Source of the DNA: an uncultured Gemmata sp.
Lineage (GTDB): Bacteria > Planctomycetota > Planctomycetia > Gemmatales > Gemmataceae
DNA length: 53,738 bases
Reading direction: 5' to 3'
Assembly (NCBI GenBank): GCA_937924775.1
Contig: CALDUT010000023.1
Span: forward strand, 1 to 53,738
The notes beneath the pieces were generated by a model. The model did no database searches, was not told the origin of the DNA, and saw only the letters and a program-made list of their open reading frames with translations. A program made the position numbers and the translations under genes. Of this stretch, positions 24,820-44,827 are shown one piece after another (the stretch's first letter is position 1; each line of letters begins with the position of its first letter).

Positions 24820-25024
24820 TCCTTCCCTTCCTTTCCCATTACGTGGGGAGGTTGTCCATCGGTTGGGTTTTGGTTTCCGCTCGGGAAATTCCTCTCGGCT
24901 TCTGCATTCAGCATAGGAAAGCCGTCAACCGGCCTCTGGCCCGCGAGGAAAATCGGACTGGGAAGCGGCGAGCGGCGTCTTCGTTGGTATCGTGAGCGTA
25001 TGGGGGTTCTGAGGAGCGTTGCAT

Positions 25025-26005: not shown

Positions 26006-26020
26006 CAGTGCTATTCCGTC

Positions 26021-28416: not shown

Positions 28417-30132
28417 ATGACGCTCGACCGCCGACGTTTTCTTGCAACCGGAGGAGTCGCAGTGGCCGGAACGTTCTTTCCCAACTCCCTCAATGCTGCC
28501 GATGCCAACACTGAAGCCGCAGCGTTCATCAAAGACCACGAGTCGCGGATTCGGCCGCTGGAAGTACAAGTCAACCTCGCTTGGTGGAACGCTAACATCA
28601 GCGGCCAAGATGAAGACTTCCAAAAAAAAGAAGAAGCCCAAAATAAACTCGACGAGGCGCTGGCCGACGAGACAGCCCAAGAAAAAATTCGCGTTCTGCA
28701 TCAACTTTATCGCGATGGCAAAATCACTGACCGGATCACGGCTCGGCAGATTCACTTACTGTTCCTGCAATATCAGGAAAAACGCGGTGGCCCCCTCCTG
28801 AAGAAGATCAATGCCAAGGCCAACGCGGTGGAACAAGCGTTCAATGTCTTTCGGGCCCGAGTCGATGGGCAAGAAATCCCAGATAGCAAAGTCCGCAGCA
28901 TCCTGAAAGAATCCACCGATTCTGAACTTCGGCGAAAGGTGTGGGAGGCGAGTAAAGAGGTTGGGGCAAAGGTGGAAGCCGACCTGGCCGAGTTGGTCCG
29001 ATTGCGCAATCAACATGCCGTCAACTTAGGTTACAAGTCGTACCACCAGATGAGTTTGACTCTCAATGAGCAGGACGGTCCCGAACTCGACGAACTCTTC
29101 GATGAACTCGACGACCTGACCCGAGAACCTTACCAACGCGCCAAGGCCGAAATCGACGCCCGCTTGGCGAAAAAATACGGCATCCCGGTTGCGGAGTTAA
29201 TGCCGTGGCACTATCACGATCCCTTCTTTCAAGAAGCACCAGCGATATTCGAAGCCAATCTCGACGCCCCCTACCAAAAAGCCGACATCATCCAACTTTG
29301 TAGCAATTTCTACAAGGGCATCGGTCTGCCCATCGACGACGTCATCGCTCGCAGCGACCTTTATGAGAAAAAAGGGAAGTCGCCCCACGCATTCTGCACC
29401 GACATCGACCGCGAAGGGGATGTCCGTGTCCTTGCCAATATCGTGCCCAATGAATACTGGATGGCCACCATGTTGCATGAACTGGGCCATGCGGTCTACA
29501 CGTCCAAAAACATCCCGGCCACTGTACCCTACGTCCTTCGCGATGCCGCGCACATCCTCACCACCGAGGGGGTAGCGATGCAGTTCGAACGCTTCAGCAA
29601 GTCGCGGGCCTGGTTGGAGAAAATGGGGGTGACAGTTGAAAATGGCAAAGCCTTCGACGAAGCCGCGGCCCGCAGCCAACGCCACCAATTGCTGATCTTC
29701 AGTCGTTGGTGCCAAGTGATGTGGCGTTTCGAACGTGGTCTCTACAGTGGCCAGTGGGAAGGAGGCGATCCGCGGAAAACGGCCAACGAGGCCTGGTGGG
29801 ACCTCGTCGAGAAGTACCAACTGCTCAAACGCCCCCCCGGGCGCAATGCCCCCGATTACGCGAGCAAAATCCACATCTGTAGCGCCCCCGTATATTATCA
29901 CAACTACCTGATGGGGCAACTGTTTGCGTCACAAGTCCACCACGCGCTGGCCAAAGAAGTGTACAATGCCGATCCCAAGACGGCGCTATACATCGGCGAA
30001 AAGAAGGTCGGCGAGTTTATGCGTAAGAAAGTCTTCGAACCAGGCCGAACACTGACGTGGCGGGAATTAACGCAACATGCCACCGGAGAGAAACTCAACG
30101 CGCGCGCTTTCGCCAAAGACTTCGAAGCCTGA
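28417..30132 (+). CDS. M2-family (ACE-like) zinc metallopeptidase, Tat-exported
   Basis: A 571-residue peptidase with a twin-arginine signal (RRRFLATGG, residues 5-13, then a hydrophobic stretch to about 28). The zinc motif HELGH is at 354-358, and the downstream Glu ligand is probably in TTEGVAMQFE near 384-393. Blocks such as LVRLRNQHAVNLGYKSYHQM near 194-213 and HICSAPVYYHNYLMGQLFASQ near 486-506 match the angiotensin-converting-enzyme family (M2), which removes C-terminal dipeptides. Length is typical of a single-domain bacterial member. Acts outside the cytoplasm. Substrate not known. Confidence 0.9.
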   Translation: MTLDRRRFLATGGVAVAGTFFPNSLNAADANTEAAAFIKDHESRIRPLEVQVNLAWWNANISGQDEDFQKKEEAQNKLDEALADETAQEKIRVLHQLYRDGKITDRITARQIHLLFLQYQEKRGGPLLKKINAKANAVEQAFNVFRARVDGQEIPDSKVRSILKESTDSELRRKVWEASKEVGAKVEADLAELVRLRNQHAVNLGYKSYHQMSLTLNEQDGPELDELFDELDDLTREPYQRAKAEIDARLAKKYGIPVAELMPWHYHDPFFQEAPAIFEANLDAPYQKADIIQLCSNFYKGIGLPIDDVIARSDLYEKKGKSPHAFCTDIDREGDVRVLANIVPNEYWMATMLHELGHAVYTSKNIPATVPYVLRDAAHILTTEGVAMQFERFSKSRAWLEKMGVTVENGKAFDEAAARSQRHQLLIFSRWCQVMWRFERGLYSGQWEGGDPRKTANEAWWDLVEKYQLLKRPPGRNAPDYASKIHICSAPVYYHNYLMGQLFASQVHHALAKEVYNADPKTALYIGEKKVGEFMRKKVFEPGRTLTWRELTQHATGEKLNARAFAKDFEA

Positions 30133-30381: not shown

Positions 30382-31092
30382 ATGAATCGCCGCGAATTAC
30401 TCGGAAACTTGGGTGTGTTGGGAACAGCTGCGGCGGCTCACGCCCTGCATCCAGCCCAGGCGGCAACGAATCACGCCAAGGAAGGTCCGATGTCCGCACC
30501 GCATTTCCACTTCTGTGGGATCCATATGGCGAAGAAAGACCCCAAGGTGCAATTCATTACCCAGCACTATTGCGCAGCCCACACCGGCGGGCCAGATGGC
30601 GACGTGTTCCAATGCACCCTCTACGATGGCACCGGGAAAAACGCCAAATTGATCGGCGTGGAATATCTCATCACGGATGCCGCTTATCGCAAATTGCTCG
30701 ATGAGGAGAAGAAGTATTGGCATGCCCACACTTATGAGGTTCTGGGCGGGGGTCTGATCGCCCCGGCGATGACTCCCGAAGAAGAAATGAAATTCATGAA
30801 ATTGGTCCTGACCCTGTGGGGCAAAGCGTGGCACACCTGGCCGGATCCCACCACCTCCGTGCCTCTGGGCGAACCGCTGTTGATCTGGTCGTTAATGGGT
30901 GATGGCCAAGTGGATGAAAAGCTGCAAGCCCAGCGAGATCAGGAATTTCAGGTTGATACGGCCAAGATCCGCCAACAGCGAGAGAAGGCTTTTGGCCTAC
31001 GGGCCCCCAATGTCTCTGTGCCCAAAGACATCAACACCATCGGCCGGATGTGGACCGATATGGGCGATGACCGACCCACACCGCTCAAGTGA
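30382..31092 (+). CDS. DUF1264 (oil-body-associated-protein-like) protein, exported
   Basis: A 236-residue protein of the DUF1264 family. The N-terminus (NRRELLGNLGVLGTAAAAHAL) looks like a twin-arginine or general signal. The family body reads HFHFCGIHMAKKDP, FITQHYCAAHTGGPDG, KLIGVEYLITDAAYRKL, EKKYWHAHTYEVLGGGLIAPA and GKAWHTWPDP, all typical, with several conserved His that may bind metal. Known members include plant oil-body-associated proteins; the bacterial role is unknown. It is preceded by an AT-rich 100 bases with a poly-T run that should hold its promoter. Confidence 0.86.
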   Translation: MNRRELLGNLGVLGTAAAAHALHPAQAATNHAKEGPMSAPHFHFCGIHMAKKDPKVQFITQHYCAAHTGGPDGDVFQCTLYDGTGKNAKLIGVEYLITDAAYRKLLDEEKKYWHAHTYEVLGGGLIAPAMTPEEEMKFMKLVLTLWGKAWHTWPDPTTSVPLGEPLLIWSLMGDGQVDEKLQAQRDQEFQVDTAKIRQQREKAFGLRAPNVSVPKDINTIGRMWTDMGDDRPTPLK

Positions 31093-31257: not shown

Positions 31258-34200
31258 TTACTTCAGCTCCCGCTCATGAAGTTCAGTGGCCATGTCGCGA
31301 TGAATGCGGCGGCGGATGAGAAATTCATCGGCATCCAACCAAGCCCGTACCGTCGGGCTGAGGGTAAAATCTTCGGTCACGATAGCTCGCACGGTGCTGT
31401 CCACCAACCGCAAGGCCTGTAACGTGAAGTGACCATTCGTCGATGAATACACGGTGAGTCGGTCGGGGAATTGGAAGAGTTCTTCGAGGCGACCCAAAGC
31501 GATGCTGGGCGGAGCAAAGCCCAGCGTTTCTGCGTATTGGAGGAGTAACTCAGTATGCTCCCGCGGCGGCAGGGGCGGCGCTAAACGTAATCGGTCGCGG
31601 GCTGCATCAAGAATGCGCCAACCGGCTTCTGCATCGCCCGCGACGAACCATCCGGCCGCTAGGCCAACCCGTTGTGCGAGTGATGAACCACTCTCATTGT
31701 CCCACTGGCCGCAGCGCGGATCGAGGGACTCCATCAAAGATGCCGCGAGCGTGGCGTATTCCCCACGACGAGCGGCCCGAAAGAGAGGGATCGCGGCGGC
31801 TTCCATCGCTGGCTGCATTCCACTTGTGAGAACGGCTTTGTTCAGATATTTTAATAAATCTCCGAGCGATGAAGGGGGGGCCACAGTACAGGCCATGGCC
31901 AACAGTGACCCCCGAAGGGCCACGGTACGTTGTTGCCGTTCAGTTTCAGTCCATCGTCCGGCCTGCAACCACGCCTCCACCCATTCTAGCGCCGCGGGTA
32001 CCAGATCCATGAGTTGCTCAATCATGCTGCTGTCGAAGTAGGCCGCGGATGCGAGTAAAGTGTAAACCACGCGCGGTATAGTGGCCGTGGTTGGTTCATT
32101 CGTGGCTAACTCCAACAAAGCACGGCCTTCTTCGACGATGAGGGAAGGGTCCGTTTGGGCGGTGAAAAGGGTCAGGCGTTCTCCCAGACGATCGGAACCG
32201 ATGAATTCGCGAAGATCGCGACCAGCGTAGGGTTGGACCGCGCCGACCGGCTGCAAAATCCGGGAATATTGCCGCAACCGATTGATCGCGTAGCGGGTAA
32301 ACTCCGGCATTTTCTCCCAGCGCTTCTGAAAGTCGGAGGGCCAACCCGGTTTTGGCAAAGTGCCTTCATTGGCCTCCTGTATCCGCCACAAGAACAGATC
32401 GCCCAGGAAAGCGTGAGCGGCTGGATCGATCCGCGGCGCTACGACCAAACCGAGAGCTTTCCGCGCCCAGGCGGCCCAATCGCGGGAAAGGGTTCGTTCT
32501 CCCAAGACCCCCAGACCCCACGCGAGCATCAGTTGCGCATATTCGGCGGTGGCCTTCGTTTCGCCCGCCAAGCCGACGGCTTGAAGTCCGGCAATTCCCC
32601 GGGGGCGTTCCAGCCAATCCCGGATGGGTTTGCGGAGGTGCTTCAAGCGGTCGCAGGCCTGCTTGAAGCGCTCGGGAGAGGCCCACCCATGAAAGCGGAG
32701 AAACGAGGGTGCGTCGAGGTCAAGCGCTGGACCGCGTTCCTGAAGCCGTCGCATCAACCGATCGTACCATCGAGCCAGTCCGAGGGTATCTCCGTGGCAG
32801 CCCCGGGTGAGACCCCAGCGGGCCAGCCATGCGGCCCGCACGGGAATGTCATCGAATTTCTGTTCCAACATCCCAAGAATTCGCGGTAACAACTTGAGCC
32901 ACTCTGAAGAAACTACTGGCGTGCCAGCCCCAGCAGCCAATGCCGCGACAACCCGTCCGGCCCCAGGGCGGTTAGGGGAACTGAGCCAGCGATCCCACAG
33001 GGCACTATCCCCACTAGTGGCACGCTCAGCACCTGCGGCGCGGCATTCTGCCGTAATCCAATGTTCGAACCACTCGGTCGGGGGCGTGGGGCAATCCCAG
33101 ATGGCGTTCATCCAGCCGATGGCTGCGTCCGCGGTTTGGCCGATGGCCGAGTAGAGACTCGCCAGTTCGGCCCAGCGGCGGGCCCGGCGCTCTGTTGGCA
33201 ACTCCGCAAAATCCTCAAGTATTCGACTTTCTAACTCCTGCCGGCGTACGGCCCAATCCGGACCCAAGAGCAAGGCATCTGGGGTGGGAAGATGGCGGCC
33301 GGTCGATGATTCCTTTGGCTCGTTGGTAGCTTCGTCCACCTGCTGACGCGAGGGCTGCGGCACCGGCGGAAGACTCCGTCCGCCTGTGGAAGACGGATGC
33401 CATAGTATCCGGTAACCTGTGGACATCCGACGCATCCAGCCCAAAAATCGTGATAGGGCTGAGATCATCCAACGGGCGGAGATGGATTCGCCGACCTTTT
33501 CCACGGGGCAAAGGGATGATGCCGTCGGCGGTGGGAGAAGGTCGATAGTCGTTTCTGTGGCGAGAGCAAAGCGTTCAAAGTCCAACCCGCCATACTTTTC
33601 CCGATGGGGTATTAACGAGGAACGCGGTGGCACACGGTGTTCGAGCCACTTCTCGAGGGGTTGAAAAGCCGCGTGCGGCACGCGGTGAATTGTGAACGTT
33701 CCAGCTGCCGGTTCGAGCCAATGAATGTGGTCGGCAGTATACGCCAGGGCCCGGGCCAATGAATCAGCCCGGAGGGCCGGCCGCAAGTGCTGGCCGGTAG
33801 GTAGATAGAGCCCTGGAAGGCGGGGATCAGGGTAGTATCCCATCGCGGCGAGTGGTAACATGGCGGCGTGGTCGTTGGCCGAGCGACGCTGGATGAGGAT
33901 GCGACGGTCGTTTCCGTGGTGCAAGATGGCACACGTCAGTTTCCGAACAAGGCGTTCGTCCACATCCAAGCAGAATCGCTCAAATTCGCACATTCGTTCT
34001 GGCGATAAAATCCACAGAGTCGGCGGTGGTGTGGTGTGACAAGGGCTGAGGCGGAGGTCCACAGCGATTGGCGGTTTCGATGTGTCCGGTGTGATGATCG
34101 GTGCTGCCTGCGGGTGTAGGGCGAGTTCAAGGTGCATTGCTTGCGGGACTGGGGCCGGGCAGTGCCTCACACCGTGGACAGGATCGCACAGCAGTACCGA

Positions 34201-34746
34201 TCCCTCAGGAACCACCAATTGCGTCGCCAAGGGATGTTGCCAATTCCATGCCACCCATACTCCAGGGATTTGTTCATGATAGCTACGAATCGCAGAGAAT
34301 TGGGGGTTGTGACTGAACGAGGGGGGTGGCGGGGGCTGAACCGCGACCCACGCGGTTCCCTCGTACGGCTCTGGGAGGAATTTCACCCCCAGCAGCACAC
34401 GCGGCCAGCAACGACGCAACCGCTGCACCAGCAAAGCCAGCGAGCGATTGGGTAACTCATAGAGAACGATCGGAGCTGTTTCGGTTTCATGGCGTTGCAG
34501 GGGAACGATTTCGGCCCAGGAAGCTACCGGCTGAGCCTTCAAGAGGGGATGAACGCTCGCACGCACACCAAAACGAGCCAACAGTGCCAACGTATCCCGT
34601 TCGGGGAGTTCTGGAATTTCCAAGCCGACGCTGCCGTTGTCAGCCTGTTCAACACGGGCGGGGGCCTGCACTACCGCCGGGGGCAATAACCCGCGGATGA
34701 GGACCAAACGAACCGTGTCTGAGGTGGGGAAAACGAGAACGGGCAT
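31258..34746 (-). CDS. Large protein A of FtsH-like cluster (1162 aa, unknown)
   Basis: I recognise no named domain. The N-terminal 400 residues look beta-rich and hold blocks shared with the next gene upstream: DVDERLVRKL near 290, LPGLYLPTGQHLRPALRADS near 335-355, then a WLEP and FQPLEKWLEH stretch near 375-400. A linker follows (about 440-500, rich in Pro, Ser and Arg). The C-terminal 650 residues are mostly helical, Ala/Leu/Arg-rich, and look like TPR-type superhelical repeats. The end, FLIRRRIHRDMATEL, matches the end of its paralog. No signal peptide or membrane helix is apparent. Last gene of the eight-gene minus-strand set. A scaffold or regulatory partner of the FtsH-like protease is my inference. 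Confidence 0.85.
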   Translation of the reverse strand: MPVLVFPTSDTVRLVLIRGLLPPAVVQAPARVEQADNGSVGLEIPELPERDTLALLARFGVRASVHPLLKAQPVASWAEIVPLQRHETETAPIVLYELPNRSLALLVQRLRRCWPRVLLGVKFLPEPYEGTAWVAVQPPPPPSFSHNPQFSAIRSYHEQIPGVWVAWNWQHPLATQLVVPEGSVLLCDPVHGVRHCPAPVPQAMHLELALHPQAAPIITPDTSKPPIAVDLRLSPCHTTPPPTLWILSPERMCEFERFCLDVDERLVRKLTCAILHHGNDRRILIQRRSANDHAAMLPLAAMGYYPDPRLPGLYLPTGQHLRPALRADSLARALAYTADHIHWLEPAAGTFTIHRVPHAAFQPLEKWLEHRVPPRSSLIPHREKYGGLDFERFALATETTIDLLPPPTASSLCPVEKVGESISARWMISALSRFLGWMRRMSTGYRILWHPSSTGGRSLPPVPQPSRQQVDEATNEPKESSTGRHLPTPDALLLGPDWAVRRQELESRILEDFAELPTERRARRWAELASLYSAIGQTADAAIGWMNAIWDCPTPPTEWFEHWITAECRAAGAERATSGDSALWDRWLSSPNRPGAGRVVAALAAGAGTPVVSSEWLKLLPRILGMLEQKFDDIPVRAAWLARWGLTRGCHGDTLGLARWYDRLMRRLQERGPALDLDAPSFLRFHGWASPERFKQACDRLKHLRKPIRDWLERPRGIAGLQAVGLAGETKATAEYAQLMLAWGLGVLGERTLSRDWAAWARKALGLVVAPRIDPAAHAFLGDLFLWRIQEANEGTLPKPGWPSDFQKRWEKMPEFTRYAINRLRQYSRILQPVGAVQPYAGRDLREFIGSDRLGERLTLFTAQTDPSLIVEEGRALLELATNEPTTATIPRVVYTLLASAAYFDSSMIEQLMDLVPAALEWVEAWLQAGRWTETERQQRTVALRGSLLAMACTVAPPSSLGDLLKYLNKAVLTSGMQPAMEAAAIPLFRAARRGEYATLAASLMESLDPRCGQWDNESGSSLAQRVGLAAGWFVAGDAEAGWRILDAARDRLRLAPPLPPREHTELLLQYAETLGFAPPSIALGRLEELFQFPDRLTVYSSTNGHFTLQALRLVDSTVRAIVTEDFTLSPTVRAWLDADEFLIRRRIHRDMATELHERELK

Positions 34747-34901
34747 GCCGCAAGTTTAGTACGCGATGCCGTCAGGGGGCAATGGACCAGAATTCTTCTT
34801 TTATGTCAGCAGAAAGGCGTTCTGCCACTGTAGAGGCTATGTATTGGCAATGAACGTGCCACGCTCCCTGGACGCGTGGCCCACCGCCCACCTTCGATCC
34901 C

Positions 34902-37900
34902 TCAGAGGCTGTGCATCTCCAAAGAACGTTGCATGTCGGCGTGGATTCGTCGCCGGACTAGATATTCGTCTTCTTCCAGCCATTTGCGGCCTGAAAGGCC
35001 CAACGCCGATTCATCGCCGACCAACGCTTGAATGACATCCTCCACTAATGCCAGATGTAGGCGGGAGTAATGTTGGGCCGTGGTGTAGGTATTGGGAATT
35101 TTTCGGGGGTCCATGCGTTGAAACAGCTCCATCATCCACGGCAAGCCGATTTCCGGCGACGCTTGGCCGATGGCGGATACATAAGCTCGTGCCAGGGCCG
35201 TATACAGTTGTGGCGAGAATGTAGACGTTTTCTGGTGGAGCAATTCTTGGCGAGCTTCTTCCAAAATGGGCCGGGCGGGTTCGTGCAATCCGAAGTGGAG
35301 CCAACCGGCCGCCAAATTCAGGAGCGTTTGAAGAACCTGCCCCCACAGCTCCGGTTTAGCACTGTAGTGATGGCGTAATTGGTCGAGGGTGCGGGCCCGG
35401 AGAACCTCGTTTTGGAGTTGGGTCAGAAACCGGTCGAATTCGTCGGTCAGGCCGATTTTCTTGAGACTTCGCAGGCATTGACCCGCGACGATATTGATCA
35501 GTTTGAAGCGAACATCTTCGGGCTTAGCATGAACAAGCATCACAAATTCGTCTACCAGTTGTTTGACAATGTCCACGCGGTTGAAATGTCCCGCGTAGAG
35601 TAAGGCCCGTTGTAGGAGTTCCCCTTGTTTCTCTGGCAATTCCGCGGAGACTACGTGGGCTCCGAAACCCACCGACAATGCCCTTGGCACGCGTTGCAGC
35701 AATTCCAGCGTGAATTCTTCATTGATGCGGGCGGCCAGAGGCAATCCTTCACATACAACGTGGAATTGCACCTCTTCCAGTGACTTGCCCTTGACGCCCT
35801 CGCTGTAGAGTTTCCAGATTCGTTCGGTGAGTTTGCTGGGGTTGCGAATTTCGGGCAGCTCCACCAGCTCTTTTTTGAGGGGATCGCTCAATTTGGTCCA
35901 CCCCGCGTAAGGGTCGGGTTTCTCATGGGGTTCGAGAATCCACGATTCCTTGCGCATACGGTCGATACTGTACTTGGCCAGATTGTAAGGGTTGTTCACG
36001 GGACCGCTGCCGCTTTTGTGGCCGATGTCTTCCAAAGCGTTGAGAATCTCGCGGTCCAAGGGCCCACCATGGGGTTTTTCGGCTAAGGCTTGGTCGATGC
36101 GGAATTGGAACGCTCGGAAGAGGAAGTTGCGGACAATCGCGGTGATCACCGCGGGATCGTTGGGAGTCTCGCTTCGGGGGATAGATCCGACCATCGCCGT
36201 CCGGGCCTCTGCGAGCAATTGACGGGCTTGCGTCGGTTCGCCTAAGCGGGCTAGGGTAAACGCAAAAAAGAGATCCACGAAGGCCAAGTTCGATTTCAAG
36301 GCGTCGTTTTTTTGGGCTGAGGCCGACGCGAGAATCCACTGACGAATGACGGCATGCAGTTTCATCACCTCTTCGCGAATTAGGCGACTGCGTCCGGAGT
36401 CTCGCAAGCCTGATTCGCGGAGAAAGTTTGGCAGGTCCCGTTCTGCAGTCAACCCTTGTGCCAACAATTGCTCCAACAAACGATCGCGGATACGGGCTAA
36501 GCCCAAAACATCGGAACCCGCTAACTGGGCCAACCGGTAGCCGGTCAGCCAGGCGGCCCGAACCGGGAGATATAGCAGGTGCTTTTCCAGAAATTGTTGT
36601 ACGGCGGGCAGCCGGGATTTAAGCCATGCGGGAGGGGGCTGCTGAGCGGCCAGCCACAGAAATGCCGCGACGATCGCGCGGTTCTCATGGAGGCCGCGAT
36701 TGGGTTGTTTCAGGAGTTTATCAAACTCATCGGCGTGGATTGTCTCGGTGGCTTGAGGAATTTCACTTCGGACCCAAGCTCCCAGCCAATCCCGCGGCAT
36801 CGGCTCGGTGGTCCACAACGCGTTGAGCCACGCAATCGCCGCGTCACGCGGTTCATCAGCCCGGCTGTAGGCGTCCGCCAAATGGGGCCAGAGGGCTTGA
36901 CGCTCAGGTGAATCCAAGGGTCCGCTGAGGGCTAAGAATTGATTTTCCAGTTCCTTGGCTTTTTGTTTCCACTCATTGGGGCGGCGGATCGGCTCGGGTG
37001 GAGGAAGGAAATCAGTAGAACGACTCTCTTTTCCACCACCAGGGGCGGTTTTTGTGGACGTCTTCGTGGCCGTAGCCCCGCTGGTGGGCATTTTCAGTTC
37101 CACATCTTTGCGGGGTTTGTCTTTATCGCCCTTATCGGGTTTGGGTTTGGGGCCGGGGCTGTCTTTGTCAGGGCAGATAAAGTGATCGAAATCGAATTGG
37201 GTCGCTCGGATCCAAGCGGCGAGTGGTTGTTGCTCCGTGTCGATGATGTATTCCACCCAATCTTCCAGGGATCGAAAGGCGGTGTCGGGAATCGACTCAG
37301 GGACGAAGTGCCCGTTGTTGGTGGGATAGAGCCAAACAATCTGATCCGGATCATCCGCTAGCAATTTCCGGACGCTGTCGCGACGCAAGGTGGGGTGCAA
37401 TCGTGTTCCAAGAGGCAGAAAGAGATTGGGGAGCTTCCAGTAAGGTTTGAAGGCCGTGGCTTGATCCAGGGCCAATGCCGGCGGGGGAAGTTTCGAAGGT
37501 CGGACGCGTAAAACGGCGGTGGTCGTTCCGTGGACGTTGCTGGCGATGGCGAACATCAGCCGCTGCAGCAGCCGTTCGTCGGCATCGCGGACCAGAGTAT
37601 CCAACTGTTCAACGGCATTGTCGCGTAAGACCCACAATTCCGGGGGGTCCGTCGTGGTGCTGGGGACCAGCTTCAACGCCACTGTGATCGGCTGCGGTTG
37701 CGCGTCTTCCGACCAGGTTGTGGGGGCCGAGGGGAGCTGGAATTTCAGCACATCGTAGACATCGTGGAATGGCAAGTCGTCGAAATACCGCCATTGCCGT
37801 GGAGCCCGGATGAGCAGGATTTGACCATCTGGGGCCCGGAGTTGAGAGGCCAGGGGGAGGGCATATCCCAGTTCCACCCAAATCCGCGGTGCCCGTTCCA

Positions 37901-38390
37901 GGTAGGCGTACACGCGGCCCCGTGTGCTGGACGCTGAGGGATCGAGAGCGCGCAGCAGCGTATAGTATGGTGGTCCGATGACGCGGAGTAAGACCGAGTG
38001 GCCGTTGAGGTAGCGGAAACTTTGCCGATCGTTGCCCAGCCGGAGCATTTCGCTGACTACAGTGGGAAAATCTTCGCTGTGTTCCAACTCAAAGAGTATC
38101 GCGGCCTGCTGGGTGATAAGTGGCGCGGTGGTCTCGCGTGTTAAGGGCAGCAGTTGGGGCCAGCAAGAAACTTCCAGCAGTTCTTGGTGGCCGTGTCGCT
38201 TCGATCCTTTGACACCGATACGGTCGAGGTTCTTGAGACTGGTTTTGGATAATTCCGCGGATGTTTCGACGAAAATCTTGCCGTGGGCATCGAAACTGGC
38301 GGTGGCGGGCGTCAGGGCGACCTCTGGCGGCACCATCCCACTGTGAATGGCCAGTTCCAGCGTTTTCAGATCGGGAAATAACAAAATCAT
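34902..38390 (-). CDS. Large protein B of FtsH-like cluster, homolog of protein A (1162 aa)
   Basis: Same length as, and clearly homologous to, the gene immediately downstream: compare DADERLLQRL, LPNLFLPLGTRLHPTLRRDS, WLYPTNNGHF, FRSLEDWVEY and the terminal YLVRRRIHADMQRSLE. Identity is low outside these blocks, so this is an old duplication with divergence, not recent. The linker (about 435-495) is Lys/Asp/Pro-rich (KPDKGDKDKPRK). The rest is helical repeats. No signal peptide. It probably forms a complex with its paralog and the protease; that is inference from position. No clear ribosome binding site was seen before the ATG. Confidence 0.85.
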   Translation of the reverse strand: MILLFPDLKTLELAIHSGMVPPEVALTPATASFDAHGKIFVETSAELSKTSLKNLDRIGVKGSKRHGHQELLEVSCWPQLLPLTRETTAPLITQQAAILFELEHSEDFPTVVSEMLRLGNDRQSFRYLNGHSVLLRVIGPPYYTLLRALDPSASSTRGRVYAYLERAPRIWVELGYALPLASQLRAPDGQILLIRAPRQWRYFDDLPFHDVYDVLKFQLPSAPTTWSEDAQPQPITVALKLVPSTTTDPPELWVLRDNAVEQLDTLVRDADERLLQRLMFAIASNVHGTTTAVLRVRPSKLPPPALALDQATAFKPYWKLPNLFLPLGTRLHPTLRRDSVRKLLADDPDQIVWLYPTNNGHFVPESIPDTAFRSLEDWVEYIIDTEQQPLAAWIRATQFDFDHFICPDKDSPGPKPKPDKGDKDKPRKDVELKMPTSGATATKTSTKTAPGGGKESRSTDFLPPPEPIRRPNEWKQKAKELENQFLALSGPLDSPERQALWPHLADAYSRADEPRDAAIAWLNALWTTEPMPRDWLGAWVRSEIPQATETIHADEFDKLLKQPNRGLHENRAIVAAFLWLAAQQPPPAWLKSRLPAVQQFLEKHLLYLPVRAAWLTGYRLAQLAGSDVLGLARIRDRLLEQLLAQGLTAERDLPNFLRESGLRDSGRSRLIREEVMKLHAVIRQWILASASAQKNDALKSNLAFVDLFFAFTLARLGEPTQARQLLAEARTAMVGSIPRSETPNDPAVITAIVRNFLFRAFQFRIDQALAEKPHGGPLDREILNALEDIGHKSGSGPVNNPYNLAKYSIDRMRKESWILEPHEKPDPYAGWTKLSDPLKKELVELPEIRNPSKLTERIWKLYSEGVKGKSLEEVQFHVVCEGLPLAARINEEFTLELLQRVPRALSVGFGAHVVSAELPEKQGELLQRALLYAGHFNRVDIVKQLVDEFVMLVHAKPEDVRFKLINIVAGQCLRSLKKIGLTDEFDRFLTQLQNEVLRARTLDQLRHHYSAKPELWGQVLQTLLNLAAGWLHFGLHEPARPILEEARQELLHQKTSTFSPQLYTALARAYVSAIGQASPEIGLPWMMELFQRMDPRKIPNTYTTAQHYSRLHLALVEDVIQALVGDESALGLSGRKWLEEDEYLVRRRIHADMQRSLEMHSL

Positions 38391-38508
38391 GGGTGTTGTG
38401 GGTACCGTGGGGTTCGCGGATAACTCCTGCGTCGCCGGAGGGTAACAGCTTGCATCGGGGAGGAAGTAACGGTTTTAGGAAACACCACTCCCATACAGTT
38501 GCAACTTT

Positions 38509-38772
38509 TCAATGTGACTGACCCTGTTCAGCTCGTTGCGGTTCAGGCGATTGCTGAACGGGGTTTATGGGAGCTTTTTCTTCTTCCCGTTCGACAACCA
38601 ATTCCCCGAGGTCTTCGGGTCGGAGTCCTTTGCCGATCAATCTTTCGACCAAGGCTCGGTGCATCTGTTCGTGTTCCATCGGCAGTGCATCGGGGTCGGA
38701 ATCCAGTTTGATGAGGATGTTCTGCTTGCCGGTGTGGGGATCACGCCGCAGCAGGATGGTCAGTTCGGCCAT
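38509..38772 (-). CDS. Small protein of FtsH-like cluster (87 aa)
   Basis: An 87-residue protein with a strong ribosome binding site (AAGGAG five bases before the ATG). It opens with ELTILLRRDPHTGKQNILIKLDSDPDALPMEHE (two beta strands then a loop), has a helix around HRALVERLIGKGL, then ELVVEREEEK, and ends in a Pro/Gln-rich tail. No named domain. It lies 54 bases after the protease gene and 118 before the large proteins. Could be an adaptor or a tagged substrate of the protease (inference). Confidence 0.75.
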   Translation of the reverse strand: MAELTILLRRDPHTGKQNILIKLDSDPDALPMEHEQMHRALVERLIGKGLRPEDLGELVVEREEEKAPINPVQQSPEPQRAEQGQSH

Positions 38773-38826
38773 AACTACTCCTTGGGGCGATGGGGGCGGT
38801 GGTGTTGGAGGCTGGTGGTCGGATTT

Positions 38827-41061
38827 TTACCCTTTGGCCGCAGATGATTTATCTTTATCGTGGGTTGCCGATTTTGCAGTGTCAGTAGCGGTGGTGGTTC
38901 CAGCTCCGGCACCCAGGCGGACCTCGGGCCCGGGAGCGCCGACATCATTAGGGTATTTGGCGCGCAGATCGTCAATGATTTGTTGGACCCGTTCCCCTTC
39001 GATGGTTTTCTTTTCGATCAATTCGTCGCGGAGTTGGATGAGTGTTTCTTTGTGTTTGGCCAGAATCGCCGCGGCTTTGGCTTGTGCTTCAACGAGGATG
39101 GTGTTGACCTGTCGGTCGATGGCTTCGGCCATTGAACCCGAGAGGACCTGCCGATCGCCTTTGTGATCGCGGAACGACCGTAGCGGGGCTGCGAGGTTCG
39201 ACATCCCGCAAACCTCCACCATATATTCCGCGAATAACGATGCCCGCGACAAATCCGAGTTCGGATTGCCCATGCCACTGGCTCCGGTGGAGATGTCGCC
39301 AATGAGTAACCGCTCGGCTTCAATACCGCCATAAAGGACGGTGATTTCATCGAACATTTCGCTGCGGCTCATGCCGATACGTTTCTTTTCATGGCGAAAT
39401 TGGGTGAAAAACGGAGCCCACGGCATATCGCTTTGGATCGTCACTTTTTCGGGGGGCGGATGATGTGGGCAAAAGATCGAGACGAGGAAATGCCCCGCTT
39501 CGTGGGTCGCAACCACCGGCAAATCCTTTTCGTGCAGTTCAACTTTTTCATCAAACTCAGTCAGAGCCCGTTCGATGAGTTTGGGTGTGGTGGGGCCGGT
39601 GATCCCTTCGCGGAGGCGAAGCCGGGCGATGGCTCGGCAGATGGCGTTGATGTGGTCGCCGCTGAAGGCGGTGCCTGTGGCCGTGATGTACCGGTTGCCG
39701 GTGCGGTTGACGGCATAATCGAGGGCGGCATCGTCGAACTGCAACCGCATTTTCTTGTTGTAAATGGAAAAGATGGCCCGGCGGTCGTCGTCGTCGGGGT
39801 AGGGAATGTGGATGTGGAACTCGAAGCGCCCGGGGCGGAGCAACGCGGGGTCGAGTGATTCCACAAAGTTGGTGGTACCAACGACGAAGACGAGTTCATC
39901 TTTGTGGAACCCGTCCATCTCGGTGAGCAGTTGGTTCACCATCGAGTGTTCGACGCCGCTGCCGGTGTAGGTTCCGCGGGCGGTGGCGAAGGAATCGAGT
40001 TCATCGAAGACGATGATCGACGGGGCTGATTGTCGGGCTTTGTGGAAAATCTGACGGAGGTTCTCTTCGCTTTCCCCCACCCATTTACTTTTCAGTTCCG
40101 GCCCAGAGACGATGGTGATCGCTGCCCCGATGCTGGCCGCGATGGCCTTAGCAAAGTAGGTTTTGCCGGTGCCGGGGGGGCCCCAGAAAATCATGCCGCG
40201 GGGTATCAGCTCTTCGAGGCGGGCGATTTCTTCCGCTTCGGTAGCACGGTCGCGTTTTTGCAATACATCAAGTATTTCGGCACGGAGTTTCTGTTTGACC
40301 TTGGTGTAGCCGCCGATGTCCGTGTCGAGGTCCACATTGGGAATTTCCATGTGGTTGGTGAGCGTGGCCTGGCGGAGTTGGGCAAACACCCGTTTGGGAT
40401 CAGCAGGGTAGTCTTCCCCTTCAAGAGTGGATAATAAGCGGCGTAGTCGGACCGCATTGACACCGGAAACGTATTTGTAGAGTTGCCAGGGAGAGAAGTT
40501 CTTCCCGAATTTGCGGCTTTCTTTTTGGGTGACGAGATACCGAAGGCGGTTCCGAGGAACTCCCAGTATGCTCAGCCAATGGGGGAAGAGGTTCTCGATA
40601 ACCTTGGGCAAGGGAAATGACGGGTCTTTGAAGCCCAGCCACACCAATTCGGGATTTTCGTACAGAAGCGGGATCACTTCCCGGGCTTCGCTCGTCAATC
40701 CGCCTTGGCTGGTGGTGAGCAGGTCGAGGTGCGGCAGAACCACCACCCGTCTTTCGGTAACGCCACGAACGGCATCGCGGAGTTGGGCGATCATCGTGCC
40801 CATGAGGCCCATCGGGATCGCGCCTTGCGTTTCGCGCTGCCGGCCATCGAGGTAGATGCATTGCAGCTTGGCCTGGCGGAGTCGATCGCGGATGTTCATG
40901 AACAAATAGGGGGCCAGCTCCTTGTCGCATTCGATCAAGGTGGGCAGGCCACGGATCAGTTTACTGGCCACTTCGGTCAGTTCGTGGCTATAGGCGGCCT
41001 CGACCGCTTCGGCGGGTGTCAGGCTCGCGGGGAGTTCTTTCTCAGGTATCACAATGCTCAT
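38827..41061 (-). CDS. FtsH-like AAA+ / M41 zinc metalloprotease, soluble
   Basis: A 744-residue protein. Residues about 13-230 form an AAA-like domain without a P-loop (RRVVVLPHLDLL at 104-115 sits where Walker B would be). The active AAA+ module follows: GPPGTGKT at 294-301, IIVFDE at 349-354, and LDPALLRPGRF at 403-413. The protease module has HEAGH at 520-524 and a third zinc ligand Asp603 in NPNSDLSRASLF. Both active sites look intact. Unlike true FtsH there is no N-terminal membrane helix, so it should act in the cytoplasm. The C-terminus (about 660-744) has a coiled helix and an Ala/Thr/Lys tail. Core of the eight-gene cluster. Confidence 0.93.
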   Translation of the reverse strand: MSIVIPEKELPASLTPAEAVEAAYSHELTEVASKLIRGLPTLIECDKELAPYLFMNIRDRLRQAKLQCIYLDGRQRETQGAIPMGLMGTMIAQLRDAVRGVTERRVVVLPHLDLLTTSQGGLTSEAREVIPLLYENPELVWLGFKDPSFPLPKVIENLFPHWLSILGVPRNRLRYLVTQKESRKFGKNFSPWQLYKYVSGVNAVRLRRLLSTLEGEDYPADPKRVFAQLRQATLTNHMEIPNVDLDTDIGGYTKVKQKLRAEILDVLQKRDRATEAEEIARLEELIPRGMIFWGPPGTGKTYFAKAIAASIGAAITIVSGPELKSKWVGESEENLRQIFHKARQSAPSIIVFDELDSFATARGTYTGSGVEHSMVNQLLTEMDGFHKDELVFVVGTTNFVESLDPALLRPGRFEFHIHIPYPDDDDRRAIFSIYNKKMRLQFDDAALDYAVNRTGNRYITATGTAFSGDHINAICRAIARLRLREGITGPTTPKLIERALTEFDEKVELHEKDLPVVATHEAGHFLVSIFCPHHPPPEKVTIQSDMPWAPFFTQFRHEKKRIGMSRSEMFDEITVLYGGIEAERLLIGDISTGASGMGNPNSDLSRASLFAEYMVEVCGMSNLAAPLRSFRDHKGDRQVLSGSMAEAIDRQVNTILVEAQAKAAAILAKHKETLIQLRDELIEKKTIEGERVQQIIDDLRAKYPNDVGAPGPEVRLGAGAGTTTATDTAKSATHDKDKSSAAKG

Positions 41062-41189
41062 GAGTGATCACTTCTTCATTCGTGGTGGGTGAAGCCATCC
41101 GCAACCCAGCATTATGGCCACCCTTGGTGACAGTGGACGAGGGAGAAAATCCCAGCCCTTGTCGAGGGCGGAACACGCCAGCTGCGCGG

Positions 41190-41762
41190 TTAGATCTCGA
41201 CTTTGATCGTCAGGGAGCCGCTTTCCGCGTCTTCGCTGATCTCTTTCACTGTGCCTAACTGTTGGGCTTTTTGCTTGAGGGCGTCGCGAGTGACTTGGTT
41301 GACGATATCGTGGATTTGTGGTGTCAGGTCTTGCAAGTGCTTTTCCAATTTTTCCGTGGCTTGGCTTTGCAACTTGGATTGTTCTTGCTCGAACTTACGT
41401 TCCAAGTCTTGCTTCAGTTGTTCCTTGACACGTTCCCGCAAACTTCGCTCGTTGGGGCCGACATCGTTGAACCCGGTGGCTTCGCGTTTGGCCTCTTGGG
41501 TAACTTGAGCTTCGGTTTCGGCTTTGACGGAAACCTCTCCACTGCACGGGTCCACCGTGATGATCACCTCGCCATCGCGACGGATGAGTGTTCCATCCTC
41601 CTGTTCTTCAAAACCACGCCGTTTCAGTTCTTCCCGCAGAAGCGTAGCCATATCTTCCGGGGGAAGAATTTCGAGAAGTTCTAGTTGAGTGCAAATCTCA
41701 TCGCCGGCTTTCAGGTGGCGGGATTCGGATTCTTTGACGGTGATACGGTAAGCACGGCTCAT
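41190..41762 (-). CDS. Coiled-coil protein of FtsH-like cluster (190 aa)
   Basis: A 190-residue protein with a very good ribosome binding site (AAGGAG, eight bases before the ATG). The N-terminal 90 residues look alpha/beta (RITVKESESRHLKAGDEICT, then LPPEDMATLLREELKRRGFE, then EVIITVDPCSGEVSVKAE). Residues about 105-165 form a long charged helix likely to be a coiled coil, followed by a short beta end, SLTIKVEI. No domain name from memory. It sits between the unknown 398-aa gene and the protease gene; a partner or adaptor of the protease is a reasonable guess. Confidence 0.8.
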   Translation of the reverse strand: MSRAYRITVKESESRHLKAGDEICTQLELLEILPPEDMATLLREELKRRGFEEQEDGTLIRRDGEVIITVDPCSGEVSVKAETEAQVTQEAKREATGFNDVGPNERSLRERVKEQLKQDLERKFEQEQSKLQSQATEKLEKHLQDLTPQIHDIVNQVTRDALKQKAQQLGTVKEISEDAESGSLTIKVEI

Positions 41763-41816
41763 ACCAATAACTCCTTTATGAGCGAAACATCAGGAACGAA
41801 GACTTGCTCTGCGCTT

Positions 41817-43013
41817 TCATTTGGGCCGGTCTGTGGAAGGACCGGTTCCGGACGACTCTGTTTCTGCAGTGTTCGATGCTAGGGTCGGTTTGGCGTCAGG
41901 GACTGATCCACGCAGCGGTTCGAGTCGGGCGATAATCGCTTGGGCACGCTCGGCCAAGCGATCCCCCTGGACCGCTTCCCATTCACTTTTCCACAGTTGG
42001 CTCGCAGCGTAGTCGTCGTCGAAGAAGGCCACGCTACGGGCCCGGGCCTGCCATTCTCTGAGCAGTTCCATCTGCCGGGGTACCGCGAGTGCTGCGCGTT
42101 GGGTTTCGAGACGGTCGGCCAATCGGGGTGGCCCACTGCCTTGCAATCCACCGGTCCAAAAGTCAGAGGTGGGATTGAGTGAGAGAATGGCAGCGTTGGT
42201 TCGCAAAATGAAGCGAGCCAGATCGTGCCGTTTGGCGGTATCCGCGGCTTCTATATAGTATCGCAAAGCCGCATATTCCGCTTGGCCGACGCACCGCATT
42301 TTCGACCAATCGGTGATTTGACCTTTGGCTTGCTCGTGAGCGATCCACCGCTGTTCCAGGTAGCGTTGTAGACATTCGAGGAAAACGGCTCGTTCTCCCT
42401 GAAAAAGCGGGGTGAAGTCGGGAGGTGACACGGTAGCGTTCTCTCGGCCGGCGAGGTCACCGGCGGCTAACAGCCAGCAAAAGGGGTTATGTCGGAAGGC
42501 GGCTTTCTTACGCAGTACCGTCAACACATGGGTATCGTGGCGGAGCGCATCGAAAGCGAGAGCAAAGAACAATTCGTCGGCCGGTGTGAGCGTCTGCGGA
42601 GTTGCATCCCAGGCTTTTTTGGTATCGAGAACTTTCTCCGCGGTCAGCCAAATGAGAAATTCCATGACCGGTGGCGAAAACTTCAGAATCCGCTCTTCGA
42701 GGGGAATTCGGTGCCAGACACGGCCGGGAGTGGGCATATTGTGGCGCAAGAATTTGTCGTTGCGCCAACCCCCGGCACGAACAAGGAAGAGGACGAGGGC
42801 TTTGGCGAGGGTATCCTTAACCAACTCGACGGCATTCGCACTTGCGCAGGGTGGCTGCGGTAGCGCGGCATTGACCAGGGATAGCCCTTGATCGGCTGGA
42901 AAGTGCCCCGTCAGGAAACGGGTGATTCGTAAAAGATTAAACTCAAACTTCGAGACCTGCCGCGGGCCGTGCGGTTCGCCCGGGGGAAAAGGGGGAGCGG
43001 CCATTTGCGACAT
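41817..43013 (-). CDS. Unknown protein of FtsH-like cluster (398 aa)
   Basis: About 398 residues. The start is the ATG at 43013, 28 bases past the radical SAM gene's stop; reading further upstream would run through that gene in another frame. Pieces such as VSKFEFNLLRITRFLTGHFPADQG, VKDTLAKALVLFLVRAGGWRNDK, PVMEFLIWLTAEK, DELFFALAFDALR and ARFILRTNAAIL suggest an all-helical fold; the last 30 residues are disordered. No vWA MIDAS (DxSxS) motif is seen. I cannot assign a function. The start is not supported by a good ribosome binding site, so the N-terminus is uncertain. Confidence 0.75.
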   Translation of the reverse strand: MSQMAAPPFPPGEPHGPRQVSKFEFNLLRITRFLTGHFPADQGLSLVNAALPQPPCASANAVELVKDTLAKALVLFLVRAGGWRNDKFLRHNMPTPGRVWHRIPLEERILKFSPPVMEFLIWLTAEKVLDTKKAWDATPQTLTPADELFFALAFDALRHDTHVLTVLRKKAAFRHNPFCWLLAAGDLAGRENATVSPPDFTPLFQGERAVFLECLQRYLEQRWIAHEQAKGQITDWSKMRCVGQAEYAALRYYIEAADTAKRHDLARFILRTNAAILSLNPTSDFWTGGLQGSGPPRLADRLETQRAALAVPRQMELLREWQARARSVAFFDDDYAASQLWKSEWEAVQGDRLAERAQAIIARLEPLRGSVPDAKPTLASNTAETESSGTGPSTDRPK

Positions 43014-43041
43014 GGGAGACCCATTCTTTCCTACAAACGTT

Positions 43042-43683
43042 TTAATCCACCGTGGGCACTTGGGGTAGAGGTTTTTTCCGCTTCCAGCCACGCCACAAAC
43101 CGGCCGCTGCTGCCGCGGGGAAACCGTTGATGGTGATGGTGCCATGATCCATGCGGATTTCGAGCGTATTACGCTGTCGCCAAGTCTCATCGAAACGATA
43201 ACGCGAACTGAGGAAATGGATCTGCTGATTCCGGGAACCGATCCAGCGTCGCCCTGTTTCTGGTAGTTCGCGGATGTAGGGACCATCGACCAAAATATCA
43301 GTGAATCCTAACAATTCCACGACGTCGGGTTCTGGTCGCTGCTGGAGTTGCTCCAAAGTATAACCCGTGAAGATCATGACCGACAGGTTCCGCTCACGAA
43401 CCTTCCGAACCAAGGCCAATGCGGAGCGTGTGTGGGCAAACGGTTCGCCACCAAGAAGGGTAATCCCTTCGATCGCCTGCTGCTCTTGCGTTTGGAAAAT
43501 CCACTCGGTCATTTTCTGAACACCAATCCGTTCCCCCCCGTCAAAGGGTATAAATTCCGGGTTGCAACATCCGGGACAGCGCAATGGGCAGCCCTGAAAC
43601 CAAATGGCAAAGCGCCGCCCCGGCCCTTCCGCCTCTGTACAAGTTATCACTTGGGCAATACTCAGGTCGATGTCCGTAGTCAT
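43042..43683 (-). CDS. Radical SAM enzyme, NrdG-like single-cluster activase family
   Basis: A 213-residue protein with the radical SAM cluster motif CPLRCPGC (CxxxCxxC) near 32-39 in FQGCPLRCPGCCNPEF, and GITLLGGEPFAH near 68-79 (the GGE motif that holds SAM). This is the layout of the short activases such as NrdG. No glycyl-radical reductase or pyruvate formate lyase lies nearby, so it may modify a member of its own cluster. The C-terminus has about 70 residues beyond the core, ending Arg/Lys/Pro-rich. The ATG at 43683 was chosen over a GTG 12 codons earlier; neither has a strong ribosome binding site. Confidence 0.88.
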   Translation of the reverse strand: MTTDIDLSIAQVITCTEAEGPGRRFAIWFQGCPLRCPGCCNPEFIPFDGGERIGVQKMTEWIFQTQEQQAIEGITLLGGEPFAHTRSALALVRKVRERNLSVMIFTGYTLEQLQQRPEPDVVELLGFTDILVDGPYIRELPETGRRWIGSRNQQIHFLSSRYRFDETWRQRNTLEIRMDHGTITINGFPAAAAAGLWRGWKRKKPLPQVPTVD

Positions 43684-43780
43684 GAATTTCACTTTTTCAG
43701 CATAATTTTTTCGCGACACAGGGCACGACAGTGCGGGGAGATGCTGCGACCGAAAACATTCCCCACTCTAGCTTGCCGCA

Positions 43781-44827
43781 TTATATCCGGGCCGGTAGTG
43801 ACACAATCCCGGTTTTATCGTCATTGACGCGAAGAATGATGGCACGATCCACAAATTTACGCACAGTTTCCACGTTCGTTGTGGTGTGCCGGGTGATCTC
43901 CGAAACCCGGTATTCGCTGGTTTCGTCACTCAACGCGAGCGGTAAAAGGATTTGATCTGCCGAATGAGGATCGACCGGGGCTTGGCGCTGGCGGAAGGCC
44001 AGAGCCTGATCCGCCGCCTCATCGGCCACCAATTCCGCCGGTTTTCCCCGTTCCCCCAGGGCAAAAAAGAGCGTCGGCACGGGTGTTTGACGAAAGATGA
44101 CGGCGGCCATGGTCCCCGGATTCGCGGCCGTCCAATGTTCGATACTCACATGAGATTCCACACCGTCGGATTTTAACCGACTACTCAAACGGCGGGCTTG
44201 TCGTTGCGCCACCGATTCTGGTAAATCCGCGCTGGCGCTGATGCCATGAGCCGTCGTGAGGGGAGGACTGGAGAGAAGCGTTAAGCCTCGGACCCGTTGG
44301 CAGGGATGGATGACGGCCCGAATTTCCCCTCCACCACGTGGGTAAAACCCCGGGCGCACCAGGGTCAGCTCGACGCGGATTCCGATGCGGGCCATGTAAG
44401 CCGCCCAAGTCGTCGCCAAAAAGTGGTAGCACGGGGCCTGTGCGGTATGTGTACCTCCGGTAATGGTAATTTCGCTGGGCCGCTCACCGCCGAGTGCCAA
44501 AGGCAGATAGAGGGTATGGAGAACTAAGCCGGTAGCACCAGCCGTACCTATCGCAAAGCGATAGTCACCAGCTTGGACGGGCCCCGGTTCGAAATACAGC
44601 ACACTCGAACCCAAGGAGCCGCCTTTATAGTAAGCCCCACAGATGGTCGCCGCTGCGCGGACACATAGGAGGTGTTGCGGTTGCAAGCCCGGTTTGGCCC
44701 GATGGGCACGGATGTTGAACACTTTGACCGGGCGTTGGGTCAGCATCGCCAGGGCGAGGGCGGAGCGGAGAATCTGTCCGCCACCTTCACCTTCCGAACC
44801 GTCGATCTCCACAAGGTTACTGTTCAT
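43781..44827 (-). CDS. rtcA: RNA 3'-terminal phosphate cyclase
   Basis: A 348-residue RtcA. The family signature DGSEGEGGGQILRSALAL is at about 9-26, with RAKPGLQPQHL near 45-55, IGTAGATGLVLHTL near 94-107, GFYPRGGGEI near 160-170 and VDPHSADQILLPLAL near 291-305, whose His corresponds to the one adenylated in characterised enzymes. RtcA uses ATP to turn RNA 3'-phosphates into 2',3'-cyclic phosphates. I chose the ATG at 44827; 35 upstream residues are not family-like. No rtcB or rtcR is present nearby. It is read in the same direction as the protease cluster, with a 97-base gap to the radical SAM gene, so cotranscription is possible but not shown. Confidence 0.93.
   Translation of the reverse strand: MNSNLVEIDGSEGEGGGQILRSALALAMLTQRPVKVFNIRAHRAKPGLQPQHLLCVRAAATICGAYYKGGSLGSSVLYFEPGPVQAGDYRFAIGTAGATGLVLHTLYLPLALGGERPSEITITGGTHTAQAPCYHFLATTWAAYMARIGIRVELTLVRPGFYPRGGGEIRAVIHPCQRVRGLTLLSSPPLTTAHGISASADLPESVAQRQARRLSSRLKSDGVESHVSIEHWTAANPGTMAAVIFRQTPVPTLFFALGERGKPAELVADEAADQALAFRQRQAPVDPHSADQILLPLALSDETSEYRVSEITRHTTTNVETVRKFVDRAIILRVNDDKTGIVSLPARI

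Follow-up and report, generated by a model that had tools for sequence, protein, structure and literature searches.

A probable FtsH ternary system with unlinked vWA and MoxR genes in an uncultured Gemmata sp.

Positions 1 to 53,738 of contig CALDUT010000023.1 from an uncultured Gemmata sp. (assembly GCA_937924775.1) were analysed, and this whole stretch of 53,738 nucleotides is called the window here. Between positions 31258 and 44827 its minus strand carries eight co-directed genes, which on family membership almost certainly form an operon for the protease and scaffold proteins of an FtsH ternary system (vWA–MoxR–FtsH) of the simple subtype. The components, their order in other genomes, the intact catalytic motifs of the protease and co-inheritance with an unlinked vWA and MoxR gene carry this assignment. 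The class was described from gene neighbourhoods and sequence by Kaur, Burroughs, Iyer and Aravind (2020, PMC7159879; cited throughout from passages of that paper), and with membership established the locus is a variant of it: scattered, X7-duplicated and rtcA-attached. The original prediction, made from the letters of the window, had proposed an FtsH ternary locus or a variant, which the Pfam names, the gene order elsewhere and the class-specific MoxR and vWA genes in the genome bear out. It had also ranked the locus as the strongest candidate for an undescribed system; this we drop, as the class, its radical S-adenosylmethionine (SAM) component included, is described in the passages of Kaur et al. 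(2020, PMC7159879).

All eight consecutive reading frames first listed are present. Their order is rtcA, the radical SAM gene, fvmX6, fvmX5, the FtsH gene, the fvmX3-analog gene (X3a) and two fvmX7 genes (copies a and b). A Pfam search had been suggested as a check, and every product matches a curated family well over its cut-off (RTC; Fer4_12; fvmX6; fvmX5; AAA and Peptidase_M41; fvmX3-analog; fvmX7 twice), so that two proteins first called unknown now have the names fvmX6 and fvmX5. The ATG first called for rtcA is confirmed; the fvmX6 frame as first drawn begins at 43286 and so runs into the radical SAM gene, and one of the two ATGs in Table 1 is its likely start. The two 1162-residue proteins are homologous as proposed, both belonging to fvmX7 with 27% identity in the X7 alignment.

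The protease had been described as an intact soluble AAA+/M41 enzyme, and its motifs are indeed intact. Walker A and B residues, the RPGRFE segment, HExGH and an aspartate downstream of it are invariant in 20 out of 20 aligned rows, our protein included. Among 65 FtsH rows (45 distinct), Walker A is found in 63, and Walker B and HExGH (HESGH counted) in all 65; the two rows without Walker A are one genome under two loci (L045 and L158). The highest 19-residue mean hydropathy is only 1.45 and is located within the AAA domain, so the protein should be soluble. Residues 1–240 have no P-loop and are highly conserved, with far more positions invariant than in the peptidase part; in these systems the N-terminal region of FtsH is described as an inactive AAA domain that has neither P-loop nor Walker B (Kaur et al. 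2020, PMC7159879). One other M41 gene is found elsewhere in the genome and is presumably an ordinary FtsH.

The window does lack a vWA protein, as first noted, but the genome has one. A genome-wide search with the class-specific Pfam families returned one ivWA gene (contig C19, 89285-90727) and, among the matches listed, 12 bpMoxR-family matches, one of them strong (1.1e-62; contig C4, 324641-325807); no other system gene lies within ∼9 kilobases of either. The vWA protein matches ivWA (3e-40) and ivWA-helical_N (1.5e-32), having a helical N-terminus instead of a beta-propeller, for which it gave no match. It lacks the DxSxS metal motif, as do the vWA proteins in 12 of the 13 rows compared (our own counted), and the metal aspartates are reported to be lost in some FtsH ternary systems (Kaur et al. 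2020, PMC7159879). The MoxR protein matches bpMoxR (2.1e-62) and has the P-loop GPPGTAKS, found in 18 of 20 rows (duplicates included; GLPGTAKS in the other two); a GXXXTAKS P-loop is often, not universally, found in MoxR proteins of the class (Kaur et al. 2020, PMC7159879).

Co-inheritance was examined in 99 genomes, our own included, with presence lists compiled by hand from the profile-search tables. fvmX7 is found in 49 of them, fvmX6 in 46 and ivWA over cut-off in 47. The ivWA gene is present in 45 of the 49 genomes with fvmX7 versus two of the 50 without it, and in the family outside the genus the counts are 28 of 30 versus one of 12 (p = 2e-7). All 99 genomes have bpMoxR matches; within a band of E-values from 1.4e-64 to 5.7e-55, picked after seeing the table, and among the matches listed, MoxR is found in 46 out of 49 genomes with fvmX7 versus one out of 50 without. 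The radical SAM gene likewise tracks the FtsH system, even where unlinked (46/49 versus 7/50). Among the exceptions, G007, G016, G018 and G029 are 65–84% complete and G059 has an ivWA match under threshold; the remaining ones (G003, G033, G043 and G056) are drafts more than 90% complete, unlike the incomplete genomes. A weak fvmX7 match and no fvmX6 match were obtained for G039, G042 and G059. It is very probable that MoxR–vWA works with the operon in trans. Without a vWA or MoxR gene in sight, a locus of this kind would be overlooked or taken for a new system, and the strong co-inheritance of the unlinked pair makes the predicted complex testable by three-locus genetics.

The gene order recurs in other genomes, a point also proposed for checking. 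Besides our own, 45 genomes have fvmX6, and stretches from 40 of these gave one locus each; ten labelled families were counted on the X6 strand only, a contig end counted as a miss, and intervening genes from other families were allowed (e.g. between X3a and X7 in L058). On this basis X6–X5 are consecutive in 40/40 loci, X5–FtsH in 34, radical SAM–X6 in 33, FtsH–X3a in 28, rtcA–radical SAM in 27 and X3a–X7 in 25. Loci of the genus are syntenic from rtcA to X7, and three myxobacterial loci (Enhygromyxa twice, Plesiocystis) have part of the core order. One locus (L191) is contiguous from end to end (radical SAM–X6–X5–FtsH–X3a–X7–MoxR–vWA); L068 has the same order without the radical SAM gene, L179 runs from X5 through vWA, and X7–MoxR occurs in L050, L056 and L060. 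Because other genomes keep parts together, the contiguous order looks ancestral; the comparison suggests that the lineage of the window scattered the operon, duplicated X7 and gained rtcA.

Table 1. Coordinates of the operon genes in the window, and of a second radical SAM-linked cluster in other genomes (own coordinates of each locus)
Feature	Position	Strand	Details
rtcA, RNA 3'-terminal phosphate cyclase	43781..44827	-	Pfam RTC 1.1e-72; ATG at 44827
NrdG-like radical SAM, CxxxCxxC	43042..43719	-	Fer4_12 3.8e-36; alternative in-frame ATG 43683
fvmX6 protein	41817..43013	-	Pfam fvmX6 1.5e-150; start inferred, ATG 43013 or 43004
fvmX5 protein, 190 amino acids	41190..41762	-	Pfam fvmX5 2.5e-82; aligned with relatives
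Soluble AAA+/M41 protease (system FtsH), 744 amino acids	38827..41061	-	AAA 4.7e-42 at 290-421; Peptidase_M41 6.4e-30 at 511-695
fvmX3-analog (X3a), 87 amino acids	38509..38772	-	Pfam fvmX3-analog 7.5e-36
fvmX7 copy a, 1162 amino acids	34902..38390	-	Pfam fvmX7 4.2e-103
fvmX7 copy b, 1162 amino acids	31258..34746	-	Pfam fvmX7 1.3e-62
c4 / Clp-type AAA+ / NrdG-like radical SAM cluster	L200 7582-11054; L201 6292-9990; L212 6439-10290; L214-L217		planctomycetes

The gaps between the eight genes range from 28 bases (radical SAM gene to fvmX6, given the X6 ATG at 43013) to 155 bases. Spacing and order fit a single transcript without proving it, and we infer that the genes may be transcribed together. 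Promoter and terminator scans gave nothing above shuffled sequences, and neither Rfam nor tRNA scans of the window returned a hit.

The two X7 copies fall into separate clades, each with other genera (in a quick, midpoint-rooted tree whose branches are long), so the duplication seems older than the genus. Copy b is the least conserved part of the system, with a median identity across the genus of 45.5% (a figure that includes loci whose stretch has copy a only); copy a reaches 60.3%, X5 80.5% and FtsH 86.2%. In genome G017 (L039, 2168-5629) copy b is split into several frames and is a decaying or mis-assembled copy. An AlphaFold model of X7a (predicted local distance difference test score, pLDDT, 80.5) has an alpha/beta part at residues 1–380, a low-confidence linker and an alpha-solenoid at ∼470–1162. 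It matches many alpha-solenoids without preference (best Z 13.3, with the N-terminal alpha/beta part barely covered), and the sequence has a match to bpX2 under threshold (20.0 bits; cut-off 23.6). The X6 model, made from the 41817-42959 part and so shorter at the N-terminus, by 15 or 18 residues, than the protein read from the likely ATGs, is helical (pLDDT 90.8); it had no Foldseek match in the PDB at E ≤ 0.001, and its best VIA Z of 7.8 may reflect a common helical arrangement. Sequence searches of the PDB with X7 and X5 gave nothing convincing. The X7 and X6 models fit scaffolds and adaptors. In X3a, DP..G and LP.EHE..H are invariant across 20 aligned rows; our guess is that this small protein could be the peptide on which the radical SAM enzyme acts.

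As an overall explanation we favour, with moderate confidence, a scattered FtsH ternary system in which MoxR and vWA gate a soluble protease, a mechanism drawn from the anatomy of the parts. The soluble FtsH would be an ATP-driven proteolytic chamber, inactive in the resting state; together with X6, X5 and X3a, the two X7 alpha-solenoids would keep it within a large complex and bring in the target; and on a trigger MoxR–vWA would remodel the complex and open the way into the chamber. As a licensing step, a small component (X3a as the guess) would be modified by the NrdG-like radical SAM enzyme, and RNA ends might inform the system in Gemmata. Proteolysis is quite likely to be the output, while we give an even chance to the radical SAM enzyme acting on a protein of the system.

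Several points weigh against this explanation. Shared ancestry is not accounted for in the Fisher tests, and the choice of the MoxR band was post hoc. No effector of a recognised toxic kind was found among the eight proteins with Pfam, and the AAA fold of the N-terminal part of FtsH was shown by no tool result here. The presence of rtcA is not associated with that of fvmX7 within the family (p = 0.17), and no experiment on these proteins was found in the literature searched. Moreover, fvmX6 is found in 18 of the 19 genomes of the genus, unlike patchy defence genes, so the system is a near-fixed trait in the genus and not a patchy island. This occupancy would suit a fixed machine with a housekeeping role in protein quality control or stress, whose protease would clear damaged or misassembled complexes with X7, X6 and X5 as adaptors and which would be neither antiviral nor a conflict system; we regard that account as plausible, with somewhat less than an even chance. 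It gains from the synteny within the genus from rtcA to X7, from the slow change of FtsH and X5, and from PADLOC, which returned generic AAA, viperin-like and weak LeoB/DolB matches only, with no hypervariable effector recognised among the eight proteins. However, neither fvmX7 nor fvmX6 was found in 48 of the 99 genomes, so the class can do without the system; X7b evolves quickly; and conflict effectors are described for related ternary systems (Kaur et al. 2020, PMC7159879). As to purpose, near-fixation speaks for stress or housekeeping, the fast X7b and the effectors of kin systems for conflict.

By model score and alignment the rtcA product is RtcA. It scores 348.6 bits with TIGR03399 (cut-off 250.05) and aligns nearly full length (E 1.1e-60, query residues 39–368) with the solved cyclase 1qmh, which we take to be the Escherichia coli enzyme; a histidine near the C-terminus is aligned and is presumably the catalytic residue. 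It is the only RTC match in the genome. The sole RtcB match lies on contig C10, so rtcB is not beside rtcA, and an Rtc repair operon was rejected for this reason. In four genomes (G029, G040, G045 and G060) rtcA adjoins the radical SAM gene on a contig other than that of fvmX6; in five others with both genes (G038, G041, G059, G072 and G073) the two are apart, and the radical SAM gene is away from fvmX6. We read rtcA as a lineage-specific attachment with its closest bond to the radical SAM gene. The original prediction had reckoned with genes that do not co-occur, or have unrelated neighbours, in other genomes: this is not what we see for the radical SAM gene, and it is half true of rtcA, which precedes that gene in the 27 loci counted above and does not track the system in the family.

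Fragments of tRNA that end in a 2',3'-cyclic phosphate serve as a signal in Salmonella, for which RtcA is important in one mutant background and not in another (passages of PMC7790460), so an RNA-damage input is thinkable. The locus could then serve an RNA-damage response in which RtcA makes 2',3'-cyclic phosphate ends, these are sensed and the protease acts, by analogy with the sensing of tRNA halves by RtcR. Such a response would agree with rtcA preceding the radical SAM gene in the 27 loci and adjoining it off the fvmX6 contig in four genomes, and with RtcB elsewhere in the genome. We nevertheless consider it unlikely: a search for rtcA came up empty in 10 of the 51 genomes that have fvmX7 or fvmX6 and found it in 18 of the 48 that have neither, the other seven proteins gave no RNA-binding or CARF domain match, and the contiguous MoxR–vWA operons (L068, L179 and L191) are without rtcA in the analysed stretch. 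That RtcA is a functional part of the gated protease system is doubtful, if conceivable. The words RtcA, phosphate cyclase and Gemmata are absent from the main text of PMC7159879, the part of that paper (figures and source data apart) to which this statement applies.

The radical SAM protein has CxxxCxxC in 69 out of 69 rows (duplicates included), and its best NCBIfam model is NrdG (1.5e-29). On this match, and on the gene being found in five genomes without fvmX7 or fvmX6, one might take rtcA and the radical SAM gene for unrelated neighbours, the latter encoding an ordinary activase of anaerobic ribonucleotide reductase. We hold this very improbable: the score of 102.9 bits is below the NrdG cut-off of 126.1, and the gene co-occurs with the system even where unlinked. 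NrdD was found in none of the 99 genomes, our own included (six of 14 control genomes match), and the glycyl-radical domain (Gly_radical) in one (G073), not our own (three of 14 controls match). Of 53 genomes with the radical SAM gene, 52 have neither NrdD nor a glycyl-radical domain. An NrdG function was rejected on the score, the missing NrdD partner and the near absence of the glycyl-radical domain. Simple FtsH systems include a radical SAM gene whose product is proposed to modify a peptide from a neighbouring gene (Kaur et al. 2020, PMC7159879).

Three genomes without the FtsH system (G072, G076 and G038) have radical SAM relatives beside a different AAA+ protein and a protein called c4, which by eye is helical and charged; these cases are not independent of the radical SAM gene, having been found through it. 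The AAA+ protein is Clp-type in its C-terminal half (AAA_2 3.5e-52), and its N-terminal half gave no Pfam match. A 294-genome sample of the phylum, with four candidates per genome scored, gave four near-full-length homologues (one being the query genome G076), all flanked by radical SAM and c4 genes. Among the returned loci, flanks were examined for ten (L214–L223), and a radical SAM gene is found in five of these: L220 has a partial homologue with a radical SAM gene, L218 a c4-like gene and no radical SAM gene in its flank, and L219 and L221–L223 match the C-terminal part only, like ordinary ClpB. The row from L216, which has an internal stop, was excluded from the Clp-type alignment (A8). 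Weaker radical SAM matches occur in two further genomes without the FtsH system (G071 and G086), and the G071 stretch (L213) is without the Clp-type cluster. Near the cluster, L201 has an SF1-type helicase and L212 a protein whose kinase match is under threshold.

Comparison of the N-terminal parts of FtsH and the Clp-type protein by hhalign (probability 0.2, E 0.3) did not show homology, a match between X5 and c4 (E 0.044, probability 1.2) was not accepted, and the radical SAM tree did not settle a single origin of the Clp-linked forms. Among open papers we found nothing on a pairing of radical SAM and Clp-type AAA+ genes beyond Kaur et al., whose passages do not mention it. The near absence of partner enzymes in the 53 genomes, the co-inheritance with the FtsH system and the c4/Clp-type clusters lead us to a tentative reading, which we rate as rather unlikely: an NrdG-type radical SAM enzyme may have left glycyl-radical chemistry and become a recurrent AAA+ partner, modifying a small adaptor (c4 for the Clp-type machine, and for FtsH either fvmX3-analog or X5) as a switch for unfolding or degradation. 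The question raised is what a radical SAM activase does beside two AAA+ machines where no NrdD or glycyl-radical enzyme was found.

Where the radical SAM gene is away from fvmX6, a protein of 471–497 amino acids follows it in five genomes (L205, L206, L209, L210 and L211); the one scanned, in L209, is an alpha/beta-hydrolase. Upstream of rtcA, in the same direction, lies a porphobilinogen synthase gene (ALAD), which also precedes rtcA in 10 out of 40 loci of relatives (with other genes possibly in between). Genes for an M2/M3/M32-like metallopeptidase (28417-30132) and a DUF1264 protein (30382-31092), both on the plus strand, converge on the end of the operon, and a homologue of the DUF1264 protein is found past X7b in six loci of the genus as well. 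Earlier on the plus strand, 25019-28341 holds an ordinary MoxR (AAA_3)–DUF58 pair and then a UbiA prenyltransferase gene. The pair (25019-27391) was tried as the MoxR–vWA of the system and rejected: its MoxR is an ordinary AAA_3 protein with bpMoxR at only 1.2e-07, and the class-specific one is on contig C4.

Several known systems share parts with the locus. An RtcR-controlled rtcBA operon has in common with it RtcA, by score and alignment, and an RtcB in the genome; here, however, rtcB is on another contig and the neighbours of rtcA belong to an AAA+ protease system. NrdG/PflA-type activases share Fer4_12, CxxxCxxC and NrdG as the closest model, but our set has no NrdD in 99/99 genomes and no glycyl-radical domain in 98/99, and AAA+ machines lie beside the gene. 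With the beta-propeller MoxR–vWA ternary systems (Kaur et al. 2020, PMC7159879, in passages) the shared features are a MoxR of the bpMoxR family and the sub-threshold bpX2 match of X7a, whereas here FtsH is present and neither the eight proteins nor the vWA gave a beta-propeller match. The complex subtype of FtsH ternary systems has a vWA with a beta-propeller N-terminus, and ours is helical; Ubl (ubiquitin-like) conjugation genes, which go with that subtype, are not found among the eight proteins, the rest of the genome not having been searched for them. The closest counterpart is the simple subtype as given in the passages of Kaur et al. (2020, PMC7159879), with which the locus shares FtsH, fvmX5, fvmX6, fvmX7 and fvmX3-analog, the radical SAM gene, a vWA with helical N-terminus, a GXXXTAKS MoxR and a planctomycete host, and from which it differs by an FtsH operon unlinked to MoxR and vWA, by two copies of X7 and by the attached rtcA.

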